A stretch of DNA of 64,000 nt from Meiothermus sp. Pnk-1. GTDB lineage: Bacteria; Deinococcota; Deinococci; Deinococcales; Thermaceae. The notes beneath the pieces were generated by a model. It saw only the letters and a list, made by a program, of their open reading frames with translations, did not search any database and was not told where the DNA came from. Made by a program: the position numbers and the translations under genes. The DNA lies in the NCBI RefSeq assembly GCF_003226535.1, contig NZ_QKOB01000001.1, positions 248,001 to 312,000 of the forward strand, in the 5' to 3' direction. Within the stretch, counting starts at the first letter, position 1, and each line of letters starts with the position of its first letter. Below are positions 33,989 through 38,783 of this stretch, in pieces.

Positions 33989-34051
33989 TCGGGAGCCGCA
34001 GCCTCGCCCCTTGCGCATGGCTCAGCCCCAGTTAAGCGGGGGTATGCAACA

Positions 34052-34711
34052 ATGGAGGCCGTGAGCGTTCGGGTGCTGCTGGTCGAGGACGACCGGGGGG
34101 TGCGGGAGGCCCTCAAGCTAGGTCTCGAATTGGAAGGCTACACCGTGCTAGAGGCTTCGAATGGCCCAGAGTGCCTGCGCAAGCTGGAGGAGGGCCCCGA
34201 CGCGGTGATTCTAGACGTGCTGATGCCGGGGGGCGACGGGTTTGGGGTACTGCGGGAGATCCGGCGCAAAAGCAGCGTACCGGTGCTGATGCTCACCGCT
34301 TTGGACGAGGTGGAATGGCGGGTCAAGGGGCTCAAGGAGGGGGCTGACGACTATCTGGTCAAACCGTATGCCCTGCCCGAGTTGGTCGCTCGCCTCGAGG
34401 CCGTGCTGCGCCGCACGCGCAGGGAAGACGCGATCCTCTCCTACGCCGACCTCACCCTGTACCCGGCCAAGATGGAAGCCCGCCGGGCGGAGCGGGTGCT
34501 GGAGCTTTCCCCCAAGGCCTTTTTGCTGCTGAAATGCCTGGTCGAGCACGCCGAGCGCATCCTGCCCAAAGAGGCCTTGATGCAGCGGGTTTGGGGGGAG
34601 GAGATCGAGCCCAACACGCTCGAGGTCCACCTCTCCGCGTTGCGCCGGGCCCTGGGCGAGCCCCCCTTGCTCCACACCCTGCGCGGGCACGGATATGTCC
34701 TCAGGAAGTGA
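34052..34711 (+). CDS. OmpR/PhoB-family response regulator
   Basis: A 219-residue regulator with a receiver domain (acidic pair D13/D14, phospho-acceptor D55 in VILDVLMPG, K in LVKPYALPE) and a C-terminal winged-helix DNA-binding domain (VWGEEIEPNTLEVHLSALRRAL, HTLRGHGYVLR). It pairs with the kinase gene 53 bp downstream. A second possible start is GTG 34061. It lies upstream of the Sco/monooxygenase genes, which might be targets. Confidence 0.92.
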   Translation: MEAVSVRVLLVEDDRGVREALKLGLELEGYTVLEASNGPECLRKLEEGPDAVILDVLMPGGDGFGVLREIRRKSSVPVLMLTALDEVEWRVKGLKEGADDYLVKPYALPELVARLEAVLRRTRREDAILSYADLTLYPAKMEARRAERVLELSPKAFLLLKCLVEHAERILPKEALMQRVWGEEIEPNTLEVHLSALRRALGEPPLLHTLRGHGYVLRK

Positions 34712-34764
34712 GGTCGGATCGTCCCCGGTGCGCCTTGCCCTGGGAAAAGCCGGCGGTGTAAGCC

Positions 34765-36126
34765 ATGGCCCTCACCACGAAGCCCTATCTCAGCCTCCGC
34801 GCCCGCCTCTTTCTCTGGTTGTTGATCGCCCTGAGCCTGCTCCTGGTGCCGCTGGGGGTGCTCACCGTGCGCGAAGCCCAGCGCGCCGCCCAGGCCGGGC
34901 TCGAGCGGGCGGCCTTGTCGGGCCTGGGAGTCTTGGTGGCCGAGAATGCCGGGGTGCGTGAGCTGTTCTCGCTGGTACAGCGCTTTGGCGGAGGGGTGGG
35001 CTACGTGGTGTGGCTTCCCGGGAGGCGGGGTGCGCCCGGTCTGCTCGAGCCCCGCATAAGCTGGACGGACCGGGGGGAATACCGACTTCCCGAGGGCCTC
35101 ATCGAAGCCCTCGCCGAGGGGCAAAGCTACCGCCATTTGATCGGCGATACGTTGTGGCTGGCCCTGCCCACCGAGGCCGGAGGGATAGGCCTGGGGGTGC
35201 GCGTTTCCGAGGTGGCGGCTCTACCCTCGAGGCTCTTCCAGCTGTATACCGGCTTGGGGGTGGGGCTACTGGTCCTGGCTTGGTCGGTAGGAGCCTGGGG
35301 GCTTTCCCGCTCGCTGCGGCCAACCCTGGAGATGTCGGAGGAGCTCTCCCGGCGCAACCCGGATTTTCTCGAGCCGCTGAGCGAGCCCCGCTTGGCCGAG
35401 CTGCGCCCGGCGGTGGCGTCGCTCAACCGCTTGATGGACGAGCTTTCGCGGGCTTTTGCTCGGCTCAAGGCGCAAGAGAAATCTGCCAAGCGTTTCGCCT
35501 ACGGCGCTTCGCACGAGCTGCGCAACCCCCTGGCCGCCCTCAAGGGCTATCTGGAGGTGCTGGCCCGCCGCCCCGGCGAGCGGCGGGCTATCGAGGGGGC
35601 TTTACGTGAGGCGCAGCGGATGGAGGGCCTGCTCGAGGGCCTGCTCACCTTGGCCCGGCTCGAGGGACGGGGCCGGGTGGAAGGGACGCCCCAGGACTTG
35701 GCCGCCTTTCTAAGGGCCTATGTCCCCGAACGCTTGTCTGAAGTGATCGGTGAGGCCCAGGTGCAGGCTGAGCCTACCCTGCTCACCCTGGCGGTGGAGA
35801 ATCTGCTCAAGAATGCGCACCGGCACGGAGGGGGCCGGGTGCGAGCCCGGCTCGAGCCCGACGGCCCGGGCTTTTGGCTGTGGATCGAGGACCAGGGGCC
35901 GGGGTTCGCGCCGGAGATCCTGCCCCGCGCCTTCGAACCCTTCATCAAGTTTGGGGACGGCACCGGGTTGGGGTTGGCCATCGTAGCCGCGGTGGCCCGG
36001 GTTCACGGAGGGCGGGTTGAAGCCCAGAACCTCGCCGAGGGCGGGGCCAGGGTCGGGATTTGGCTGATCGGGGCCGGGCTGGGGGCTCACTCCCCTGCGG
36101 AAGGCCTTTCCAGCGCAAAGCGCTAA
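34765..36126 (+). CDS. Membrane sensor histidine kinase
   Basis: A 453-residue two-helix sensor: membrane segments at about 14-34 and 159-178 enclose a 120-residue periplasmic loop, followed by a HAMP-like region, dimerisation domain with H250 in YGASHELRNPLAALKGY, and an ATPase domain (NLLKNAHRHGGG, DQGPGFAPE, GDGTGLGLAIV). Partner of the preceding response regulator. What it senses is unknown. Confidence 0.92.
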   Translation: MALTTKPYLSLRARLFLWLLIALSLLLVPLGVLTVREAQRAAQAGLERAALSGLGVLVAENAGVRELFSLVQRFGGGVGYVVWLPGRRGAPGLLEPRISWTDRGEYRLPEGLIEALAEGQSYRHLIGDTLWLALPTEAGGIGLGVRVSEVAALPSRLFQLYTGLGVGLLVLAWSVGAWGLSRSLRPTLEMSEELSRRNPDFLEPLSEPRLAELRPAVASLNRLMDELSRAFARLKAQEKSAKRFAYGASHELRNPLAALKGYLEVLARRPGERRAIEGALREAQRMEGLLEGLLTLARLEGRGRVEGTPQDLAAFLRAYVPERLSEVIGEAQVQAEPTLLTLAVENLLKNAHRHGGGRVRARLEPDGPGFWLWIEDQGPGFAPEILPRAFEPFIKFGDGTGLGLAIVAAVARVHGGRVEAQNLAEGGARVGIWLIGAGLGAHSPAEGLSSAKR

Positions 36127-36246
36127 ACACGGTGGATCCTCCGAAAAGCAGGCCGTTTCTTCAGCCCCAGTTCAGCCAACGCCCCCGGACGCCTTAAGCC
36201 AACCCTCCTACCCTAGCTCTATATTCTCGAGCCGGAGCGGCTTAGG

Positions 36247-36846
36247 ATGGGATGCATGCACAGGATTGGTTGGGTTTTGCTGGCCGGTGGGCTTTGGGCT
36301 GCCGGGGGGGGATTGGCCCACGGCACCCACTACCTGCCCGCCTCGGGGCCGGGGGGGAAGGTTTTTCAACCGGCCAAGCCCCTACCCCCGGTAGAATTGC
36401 AGGATACCTGGACCAAGGCCGTGAGTTTCCCCCCGAAGGGCACCGCCTGGGCTATCTACCTGGGTTACACCGGTTGCCCCGACTTGTGCCCGATGACCCT
36501 CGAGCGGTTGCGCCAGGCCTACGCCAGCCTAGGTAGCCCCAAGACCCTGCGATTGGGCTTCGTGAGCCTGGACCCGGCCAACGACACCCCCCTCGTGATG
36601 GGCCGCTACCTGCGCGGCTTCCCGCCGGTGGAGGGCTTTACCGGGAAGCCGGAAGCCATCGCGCGGCTGGCCGAGGGGCTCGAGGTGCGCTACAATCCCG
36701 GCCCCGGCGGAACCCGGCTCTACCACACCGACGCCATCGCCTTGCTGGACGAGAAAGGCAGGTTGGTGCGGATGATCTTCGGGGCCAGCCGCCTTTCGGC
36801 CACCCGCCTTGCTGAGGAGCTCGAGCACCTGGGGAGCCTGCCATGA
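36247..36846 (+). CDS. SCO1/SenC-family copper chaperone
   Basis: Membrane-exported thioredoxin-fold protein that delivers copper. The 199-residue protein has the signal peptide/anchor, then the Cu site: C77 and C81 in GCPDLCPM, H160 in YHTDA. Its stop codon overlaps the start of the monooxygenase gene (ATGA), so it likely metallates that enzyme rather than cytochrome oxidase. The start could be ATG 36256 instead. Confidence 0.9.
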   Translation: MGCMHRIGWVLLAGGLWAAGGGLAHGTHYLPASGPGGKVFQPAKPLPPVELQDTWTKAVSFPPKGTAWAIYLGYTGCPDLCPMTLERLRQAYASLGSPKTLRLGFVSLDPANDTPLVMGRYLRGFPPVEGFTGKPEAIARLAEGLEVRYNPGPGGTRLYHTDAIALLDEKGRLVRMIFGASRLSATRLAEELEHLGSLP

Positions 36847-38246
36847 AGCGCTTTCTTCTGCTTTCGCTTTGTGCCCTGCCGTTGTGTGCGGCTTTGCGGG
36901 GATCGGTTTCGGCCCAAGCTGGGGATGCCATCCCTACCTACTACGGCACGGTAGGGCCGATTCTGCAGACCCACTGCACGGGCTGCCACCGCGAAGGGGG
37001 GATCGCCCCCTTTCCCCTCGACGACCCCCAGTGGGCGGTGCGGATGGCCCCTGCCATAGCGGCGGCAGTGCAGTCTGGGCAGATGCCGCCCTGGCCCCCG
37101 GGAGGCGATACCCCACCCCTGCAGGGGGACCGCCGCCTCTCCGATGAGACTATCCGAACCCTGGTCCGCTGGGCTGAGGCCGGAGCCCCGCTGGGAAAGC
37201 TGCGCTACTTGCCCCTGCCCTCCTCGGATGCGGGCGCTGCTGCGCTGCCCTATCGCTTGCAACCCGCCCAAGCCTACACCCCGGACCCAAGGCTGAGCGA
37301 CGACTACCGCTGCTTCCTGATCGACCCCGCTATGGGCAGCGACACCTTCGTGACCGGCTACCGCATCCGGCCCGGCCAGCCCCGGCTGGTACACCACGTG
37401 ATCCTCTTCGTCATCGGGCGGAAACAGCTGGCCTTAGCCCAGTCCCGCGATGGGCGCGACGGCAGGCCGGGCTGGCCTTGTTTCGGTGGTCCGGGGCTCT
37501 CCGGGAACCCTGCCGACATCGGAACCCCGCTGGGCTTTTGGGTTCCCGGTACCCAGGGCACCGATTTCCCCCCGGGCACCGGCTTCCTGTTGCGATCAGG
37601 CTCGAGGATCGTCATGCAGGTGCACTACAACCTGGCGGCCGGCCCAGCGGCCCCCGACCAGACCCGCTTGGAGCTGGCCACCGCCCCGGGTAGCGCCAAC
37701 CTAAAGCCGTTGCTGGGGAACGCCGTCGTAGCCCCGGTGGAGATCCGCTGCCCAACGGGGGTCACCGGCGAACGCTGCACCCGCGAATACGCCCTGGCCC
37801 ACACCGGGATGCGCTTTGTGGCCGAGGGCTCGCACCTTCTTTGCAACACCAGCCCGGCTCTTTACCAAGCCCGCGATGTCGGCGACGGCTCGAGCCAGAC
37901 CACTACCTGCGAGCGCCCGGTGCCAGGAGACCGGGTTCTCCTGGGGGTAACCGCCCATATGCACTTGCGGGGGGTCAGGGTCAAGCTCGAGCTGAACCCC
38001 GGCACCCCCCGTGCCCGGACCCTGCTCGAGATACCCCGCTGGGATTTCCGCTGGCAGGGCCAGTACTGGTTCCAAGAGCCCATCCGCACCAGCCAGGGGG
38101 ATACCGTGCGGATCACCTGTGTCTACGACAACTCCGGCCCCATCCCAGGCCCCGGCGGCGAGCCCCTCGAGCCCCGCTATATGGTCTGGGGCGAGGGCAC
38201 CACCGACGAGATGTGCCTGGGCTTTTTGAGCTGGGTGAGACCCTAG
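36843..38246 (+). CDS. PHM-like copper type II monooxygenase with N-terminal haem c motif
   Basis: A 467-residue exported enzyme related to ascorbate-dependent peptidylglycine-hydroxylating/dopamine beta monooxygenases. After a signal peptide comes a cytochrome c motif, C45-x-x-C48-H49. The catalytic core has both copper sites: H184, H185 and H261 (CuH), H372, H374 and M457 (CuM), all seen in order (LVHHVILF, MQVHYN, TAHMHLRG, EMCLGF). The haem could replace ascorbate as electron donor. It overlaps the Sco gene and precedes a secreted unknown. Substrate unknown. Confidence 0.82.
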   Translation: MKRFLLLSLCALPLCAALRGSVSAQAGDAIPTYYGTVGPILQTHCTGCHREGGIAPFPLDDPQWAVRMAPAIAAAVQSGQMPPWPPGGDTPPLQGDRRLSDETIRTLVRWAEAGAPLGKLRYLPLPSSDAGAAALPYRLQPAQAYTPDPRLSDDYRCFLIDPAMGSDTFVTGYRIRPGQPRLVHHVILFVIGRKQLALAQSRDGRDGRPGWPCFGGPGLSGNPADIGTPLGFWVPGTQGTDFPPGTGFLLRSGSRIVMQVHYNLAAGPAAPDQTRLELATAPGSANLKPLLGNAVVAPVEIRCPTGVTGERCTREYALAHTGMRFVAEGSHLLCNTSPALYQARDVGDGSSQTTTCERPVPGDRVLLGVTAHMHLRGVRVKLELNPGTPRARTLLEIPRWDFRWQGQYWFQEPIRTSQGDTVRITCVYDNSGPIPGPGGEPLEPRYMVWGEGTTDEMCLGFLSWVRP

Positions 38247-38255
38247 AGGGAGAGC

Positions 38256-38783
38256 GTGCGCCGAGTTTTTGCCGTGCTGCTGAGCCTGGTCTTGGGGTCG
38301 GGGTGGGCCCAGGATTGGGGCGCCGAGTACCTGAGCCGCTGTCAGGAGGTGGCCGACAACCTGCGCTTTCAGTTCATGTACCTCGAGCGGGTCTCGGCAA
38401 ATCGCTGGCTGGTGCGGGTGGTGCTGGGCCGGGCTGGCCTCGCCCTCACCCGCCTTACGCTGGATGCCCTGGCCGAGCCCGTACAGATAGGGCTGGAAGA
38501 CCTGGCCCAAGCCCTCACCCGGCAGGACGGCCCCCCCGACCCGCAGCTCCTGCGCCGGTTTACCAACCGGCTCCAGCGGCTCCAGCGCGAGCTGAACCTG
38601 GCCAATTACGTAGTGCTCGAGCCGAGGGGTTACCGCTGCCTCCTTACCTACCTGGGGCGGGTGGTGGGGATTTTGCGCTTTACACAAAACAACCTTCCTC
38701 GCCCCGAGCCCCGGTGGCGCGAGGCATACCTGCGCTCCGCTTTTCGTTTTCCTGAGCCCGGAGCAACCCCAGGGGTGCAGTAG
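38256..38783 (+). CDS. Secreted hypothetical protein, third gene after Sco and monooxygenase
   Basis: A 175-residue protein with signal peptide (GTG start, RRVFAVLLSLVLGSGWAQ) and a helical remainder with two Cys. No family recognised. It starts 9 bp after the monooxygenase gene, so it may form an operon and assist that enzyme. Confidence 0.7.
   Translation: MRRVFAVLLSLVLGSGWAQDWGAEYLSRCQEVADNLRFQFMYLERVSANRWLVRVVLGRAGLALTRLTLDALAEPVQIGLEDLAQALTRQDGPPDPQLLRRFTNRLQRLQRELNLANYVVLEPRGYRCLLTYLGRVVGILRFTQNNLPRPEPRWREAYLRSAFRFPEPGATPGVQ

Follow-up and report, generated by a model that had tools for sequence, protein, structure and literature searches.

The closest described systems are peptidylglycine alpha-hydroxylating monooxygenase (PHM) and dopamine beta-hydroxylase (DBH). 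Both enzymes take their electrons from ascorbate, and DBH carries an extra N-terminal domain, a DOMON domain. The source and path of the electrons have long been debated, and the two coppers lie about 11 Å apart. Animals use this kind of copper enzyme for hormone making; the putative member described here comes from a heat-loving bacterium.

In the excerpted text of a 2020 review, PHM and DBM appear as cuproproteins of eukaryotes only (PMC7435645), and in that of a 2022 paper PHM is widespread in eukaryotes (PMC8812541). An excerpt from a further paper speaks, in general terms, of eukaryotic genes clustering within bacterial homologs, with PHM among 14 families (PMC3494510). Since Pfam models match bacterial proteins and this excerpt gives such a hint, the bacterial domain is already known to databases; since the other two excerpts treat PHM as eukaryotic, bacterial members that form a conserved class and have complete copper sites widen the known set. 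For a heme-fused PHM, no paper was found among the open-licence papers searched.

Our window, the whole 64,000-nucleotide stretch of DNA that was analysed, belongs to a 3.5-Mb genome of Thermaceae type. The gene order runs from a TetR regulator through a response regulator, a kinase, a Sco protein, the enzyme and an exported protein to an AddB-like helicase:

34052-34711, plus strand: OmpR-family response regulator (PF00072, PF00486), with orthologs also in enzyme-less genomes
34765-36126, plus strand: sensor histidine kinase (PF00512, PF02518)
36247-36846, plus strand: Sco/SenC copper-chaperone paralog (PF02630, 78.8 bits against a cut-off of 22.8), with CPDxCP and His
36843-38246, plus strand: predicted fused heme-c / copper type II (PHM/DBH-like) monooxygenase, 467 aa, apparent signal peptide
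38256-38783, plus strand: exported protein, companion of the sensor pair, 175 aa, apparent signal peptide

A first-pass annotation of this DNA had placed a two-component system before the enzyme and a secreted protein after it, and these positions hold (34052-36126 and 38256-38783). It was also right that the enzyme gene, with its start at 36843, overlaps the Sco gene (36247-36846), and that a cytochrome c motif, CxxCH at residues 45-49, lies in the N-terminal part of the protein. The observation of a heme/copper enzyme locus as such is confirmed, and the interpretation then given to it is, as a whole, partly supported. The overlap comprises four bases (ATGA) both in the source genome and in its nearest relative among the compared genomes (G023, 3.7 Mb), whose enzyme is 94% identical; in the seven Meiothermus-like (g3) loci Sco and enzyme lie two bases apart. 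Pfam gave no match for the exported protein; NCBIfam, searched up to an E value of 1, gave none for it, for the enzyme or for the Sco protein.

Copper sites and fold

The two copper sites are built from the following elements of the enzyme:

37392-37397, plus strand: H184-H185, CuH ligands, aligned with the HH of PHM; 102/102 rows
37623-37625, plus strand: H261, CuH ligand, in VMQVHY aligned with VLQVHY of PHM; 102/102 rows
37956-37964, plus strand: H372-M-H374, CuM ligands, aligned with the HTH of PHM; H372 and H374 in 102/102 rows
38211-38213, plus strand: M457, CuM ligand; 102/102 rows

In PHM, we take the ligands to be numbered H107-H108 and H172 for CuH and H242, H244 and M314 for CuM. 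M457 was equated with the PHM Met because both lie equally far from the last structurally aligned pair (model residue 442, PHM residue 324), a gap-free tail being assumed. The three-His CuH site and the HxH plus Met CuM site are both complete. The six PHM-type ligands that the annotation had reported are indeed present, and they are kept in all 102 distinct rows, query counted. These rows have two sources, the 80 best among 113 loci detected in a species-level genome set and a collection of 111 Deinococcota genomes, with identical frames collapsed. Ligand loss in orthologs, set beforehand as the finding that would speak against the reading, was looked for and seen in none of these 102 rows. 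One of the six peptide search patterns included H261, so the invariance of this residue is partly selected for; the remaining ligands lay in no pattern.

Further positions around the sites follow PHM. C213, C426 and C458 occur in 102/102 rows and C157 in 101/102 (one gap), and these four are presumably the counterparts of two PHM disulfides. Q259, the counterpart of PHM Q170, is present throughout (102/102), and Y155, the counterpart of PHM Y79, in all but one gapped row (101/102). In the PDB, a profile of 45 relatives finds rat PHM at E=2e-9 and human DBH at 3e-8; the single enzyme sequence without a profile reaches PHM at E 0.75 at best. Against Pfam, the enzyme scores 28.0 with PF03712, above the cut-off of 23, and 17.2 with PF01082, below the cut-off of 30, and at E 0.01 the two models match 43 and 39, respectively, of the 45 members of the A1 set. 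A PF03712 search returns a single gene in the source genome, which is the enzyme, and zero matches in 14 control genomes.

The enzyme model (pLDDT 88.2, pTM 0.85, with linker residues 102-107 below a pLDDT of 50) superposes on DBH with Z 23.5 (269 aligned residues, rmsd 2.4) and on PHM with Z 23.3 (258 aligned, rmsd 2.5), and Foldseek gives an E value of 3.7e-14. The first 26 structural rows are all PHM or DBH chains, with Z from 18.6 to 23.5, and the next is PNGase F at 8.6. We regard it as almost certain that the protein has the copper type II monooxygenase fold and both copper sites. A chance motif is ruled out by ligand invariance together with the fold match, and a PNGase F-type or other copper-less double jelly roll by a Z of 8.6 against 23.

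The column aligned to PHM R240 holds Arg in 0/102 rows, that aligned to N316 holds Asn in 0/102, and that aligned to Y318 holds Tyr in 10/102; we take R240, N316 and Y318 of PHM to be its peptidylglycine-carboxylate residues. Because the equivalents of R240 and N316 are missing, the enzyme would not be PHM sensu stricto, and a peptide-amidating enzyme is ruled out on the same ground across the 102 rows.

The heme domain and its history

Two features mark the N-terminal domain:

36975-36989, plus strand: CxxCH heme-attachment motif (CTGCH), residues 45-49; 45/45 fused rows and 7/7 kept split cytochromes
37083-37085, plus strand: Met81 in MPPW, candidate axial heme ligand; 45/45 fused and 6/7 split rows

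A heme covalently attached to the protein is very probable, and Met81 would serve as its axial ligand; the seventh split row has a gap at this column, in a frame that is cut short. The cytochrome model PF13442 scores 19.2 bits with the enzyme, below its cut-off of 27, and at E 0.01 it matches 22 of the 45 A1 members, 18 of the 45 having been trimmed without the domain. The source genome holds two CcsA/CcmF-type cytochrome c assembly matches over cut-off.

Heme and copper domains need not share one chain. In G003, G006, G007, G008, G027 and G033, a separate small cytochrome gene adjoins a heme-free copper gene, with broken frames at the G003 locus. Seven split cytochrome frames were kept, and four that have no CxxCH were set aside, three of which represent one G003 locus repeated. 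The pairing of heme with copper is found across Myxococcota, Chloroflexota, Deinococcota and Actinomycetota. A quick tree was built from 69 rows, with 33 of the 50 heme-free rows left out for thinning along with two truncated loci. A single branch (support 92) separates all its heme-free rows from the others, so that one change between heme and no heme suffices. The change between fused and split is needed about three times, and fused, split and heme-free states together take four changes. The heme-free rows come from Actinomycetota, largely Nocardioides, many with lipoprotein-like starts by eye. All 50 of these actinobacterial rows keep every copper ligand, and because they do so with no heme domain, the heme is dispensable for function of the fold. 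Judged from these distributions, the pairing of heme and copper looks old and functional.

Three order-level relatives (G005, G006 and G007) have 5, 9 and 6 match rows of the heme/copper protein, fused and split, some rows covering just a split cytochrome or a fragment of a single gene (L092-L094, L099-L101, L106-L108, L110, L121-L123, L128-L130, L187-L189); such multiple copies suggest substrate diversification. In Nocardioides and Micromonosporaceae (L020-L079), the heme-free copper monooxygenase has apparent lipoprotein signals, and at L029 a HIT-domain gene and a PhoH gene flank it, with similar gene sizes in other loci.

Sco, sensor pair and a direct repeat

The window's Sco, used as query, has matches in 98 of 111 Deinococcota genomes, of which nine stand out at 57-100% identity while the others reach 41% at most. 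The enzyme-linked paralog is present in nine of the 111 (G000, G023, G026, G028, G034, G035, G040, G041, G042), always directly upstream of the fused gene (9/9). The nine copies are 56-100% identical to one another and at most 41% identical to the remaining Sco proteins; the second Sco of the source genome is of the ordinary type, at 35% identity. In two Calidithermus-type genomes the fused gene is present and ordinary Sco matches lie elsewhere only, and a Sco search of G005 to G008, which have 2 to 9 enzyme matches each, gave nothing at E 0.001. At loci outside the Thermaceae type, the Sco profile found no neighbour among rough gene calls. Because two genomes have the fused gene without the paralog and four have no Sco match, Sco is not a fixed partner. 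The idea that the enzyme has its own Sco chaperone therefore stands in part: in two genera its position (9/9 adjacent) marks this Sco as a dedicated partner, and it is not a rule across the enzyme family, being missing beside the gene at 2 of 11 fused Thermaceae-type loci and unmatched in four enzyme-bearing genomes. It offers a case of a Sco protein tied to something besides a terminal oxidase.

Outside the source's own genus, a Pfam scan of 20 neighbour proteins at 12 loci found no recurring redox or substrate partner and no Sco. At one chloroflexotal locus only (L003:5405-5737), a Rieske ferredoxin-like gene lies directly upstream of the fused gene and is possibly an extra electron carrier. 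A methylmalonyl-CoA mutase-like gene overlaps or adjoins the fused gene at L004 (Actinomycetota), as do genes of similar length at L010 and L012 (Actinomycetota).

The sensor pair and the exported protein have a different distribution. The exported protein follows the enzyme in 11/11 fused Thermaceae-type loci. In 24 of 27 Thermus-like (g4) enzyme-less genomes it also has a match no more than 3 kb from the regulator ortholog, many of them short and weak; the pair and exported protein occur together in G004, G027 and G108 as well. In the enzyme-less G030 and G038 the exported protein is far from the regulator. The enzyme adjoins the two-component system in the window and in Calidithermus-like genomes; in Meiothermus-like genomes it lies away from the pair, and pair and exported protein are apart. 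Because regulator, kinase and exported protein occur together in enzyme-less genomes, the sensor pair is no dedicated partner by descent. The first-pass claim that the enzyme has its own sensor pair was accordingly not upheld, since enzyme-less Thermus-like genomes have the pair too; the secreted protein downstream likewise fails as the enzyme's own, as it sits with the sensor pair in such genomes. The simplest history would be that of an old regulator-kinase-exported-protein unit beside AddAB, into which a Sco-enzyme cassette was inserted and which was later split in the Meiothermus-like genus. In two Thermus-type genomes, minus-strand frames of about 190-204 aa with no Pfam match over cut-off (L174:4060-4632 and L175:3729-4340) lie between the kinase and exported-protein genes, the spot held by the cassette in the window.

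Kinase residues 31-150 contain 1 His, 0 Cys and 0 Met, and a copper-sensing kinase was set aside, a metal-rich sensor part not being seen. The exported-protein model, built from two sequences, has a pLDDT of 71.2 and a best Z of 3.3, and Foldseek returned no match under E 0.001; several of its weak structural rows are presumably PepSY-like proteins, too weak to use. Two distant enzyme relatives (L080, L129) likewise adjoin response regulator and kinase genes, which have low identity to the window's pair, and in Calidithermus roseus genes for a sigma factor and its anti-sigma factor are found immediately upstream of the regulator (L112:10691-11880, minus strand).

A direct repeat with an 11-bp period precedes two of the window's genes:

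36160-36176, plus strand: TTCAGC-N5-TTCAGC, upstream of Sco; candidate regulator site
34021-34037, plus strand: CTCAGC-N5-TTAAGC, upstream of the regulator gene; weaker form, candidate autoregulatory site

At 10 or more of 12 letters, the repeat is found upstream of Sco in 8/9 loci (the miss being L118). In the region upstream of the regulator, 8 of 17 Thermaceae-type genomes outside Thermus carry it, against 0 of 13 Thermus-type loci; upstream of the exported protein it occurs in 3/7 loci without the cassette in front and 0/11 with it. The background at this threshold is 31 of 429,664 positions, with the sites themselves counted and the sequences related, not independent. The exact repeat occurs once each in the source genome (G000) and in G023, both times upstream of Sco. 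Allowing one mismatch, the source genome has 29 copies against 6 for a reversed control, and exact copies occur elsewhere in G025 and G040; these counts rule out the repeat as a unique site. A total of 6 matches to the pattern, reached by 4 of 100 shuffles, is not striking, and the count is circular because the pattern was derived from the two sites. At G024:C7:467830-467868 lies an array of three overlapping near-copies. The positions of the repeat suggest a candidate OmpR-type box tying the cassette and the exported protein to the neighbouring regulator.

Proposed mechanism and comparison with known systems

Sequence and prediction supply the export signal, the heme motif, the fold, the ligands, the long pairing of heme and copper and the Sco linkage; for the electron path and the reaction we draw on established knowledge of PHM and DBH. 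We lean towards a periplasmic enzyme, a binuclear copper monooxygenase in the PHM/DBH superfamily, whose covalent c-type heme would be its built-in electron donor. The enzyme would be exported to the periplasm, where Sco would load copper and the cytochrome c assembly system would load heme. Electrons from a periplasmic or membrane cytochrome pool would enter the heme, pass to CuH (H184, H185, H261) and proceed to CuM (H372, H374, M457); this delivery from heme to copper is, by analogy, likely. O2 activated at CuM would then hydroxylate a small substrate other than peptidyl-glycine. The likeliest donor is the heme, not ascorbate, and we infer metal loading, electron flow, monooxygenation and control by the neighbouring regulator in the same way. 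A thermophile enzyme with a built-in, spectroscopically visible donor would allow electron delivery to be triggered and followed.

It is unlikely, in our judgement, that the heme does not feed catalysis and that a diffusible reductant serves the copper domain, with the cytochrome part acting in docking, stability or another redox job. The heme-free actinobacterial clade, with its six ligands, does indicate that a copper domain can evolve without a heme partner; however, CxxCH and Met81 are invariant in fused rows, a split-off cytochrome stays adjacent and the pairing spans four phyla. Quite unlikely as well is that the protein is no monooxygenase and instead serves copper-heme electron transfer or the sensing of redox state or copper; it could then be, for instance, a dehydrogenase or oxidase in which copper hands electrons to heme, and the kinase next to it might do the sensing. 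Such a role would fit the two-component system beside the enzyme in the window and in Calidithermus-like genomes, the heavy-metal models among the best (though far below cut-off) scores of kinase and regulator, and the 20 neighbour proteins at 12 loci, which include no conserved substrate gene. It fits poorly with two complete copper sites that include the CuM Met and the PHM Q170 counterpart, with an extracytoplasmic kinase part of 1 His, 0 Cys and 0 Met, and with a sensor pair that exists without the enzyme.

The regulatory part of the proposal has a more serious competitor, which we consider quite possible and yet do not favour: the Sco-enzyme pair may have landed by accident between the kinase and its old companion, outside the control of the sensor pair. 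The co-occurrence of pair and companion without the enzyme in 24/27 g4 genomes points this way, as do the Meiothermus-like genomes that keep the enzyme apart from the pair and the roughly 28 other near-matches to the repeat in the source genome. Against it, the repeat stands upstream of Sco at 10/12 letters or better in 8/9 loci, even where the sensor pair is elsewhere, and scores of that level turn up at 31 of 429,664 positions in the background, the sites themselves counted.

For the heme-fed monooxygenase that we propose, a wider history may be put forward tentatively, and we regard it as somewhat less likely than not: the bacterial PHM/DBH-type class would be ancestrally paired with heme c, ascorbate-free and fed by the cytochrome c pool, the eukaryotic ascorbate/cytochrome b561 supply a later substitute, and the actinobacterial clade without heme would have been rewired a second time, independently.

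Among known systems, PNGase F and other double jelly-roll cellular proteins share the overall fold (Z 8.6), and PNGase F and PHM are placed in one Pfam clan in the excerpted text of one paper (PMC8812541); PNGase F is without copper sites, however, and the match is far weaker than to PHM or DBH. The window's Sco resembles Sco1/SenC in its PF02630 score, well above cut-off, and in its CxxxC plus His motif, but it is a distinct paralog whose position ties it to the enzyme, not to an oxidase gene. Rat PHM (1SDW, 1OPM, 6ALA) shares with the predicted enzyme the double jelly-roll, the three-His CuH site, the HxH plus Met CuM site, matching cysteines and the Q and Y close to copper; it differs from the bacterial enzyme, with which it shares 18-19% identity across the structural alignment, in that the latter has an N-terminal heme-c domain and no lyase domain. 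Human DBH (4ZEL) is the best structural match and likewise carries an additional domain ahead of the copper core, whereas in the bacterial enzyme this additional N-terminal domain appears to be a heme-c domain.
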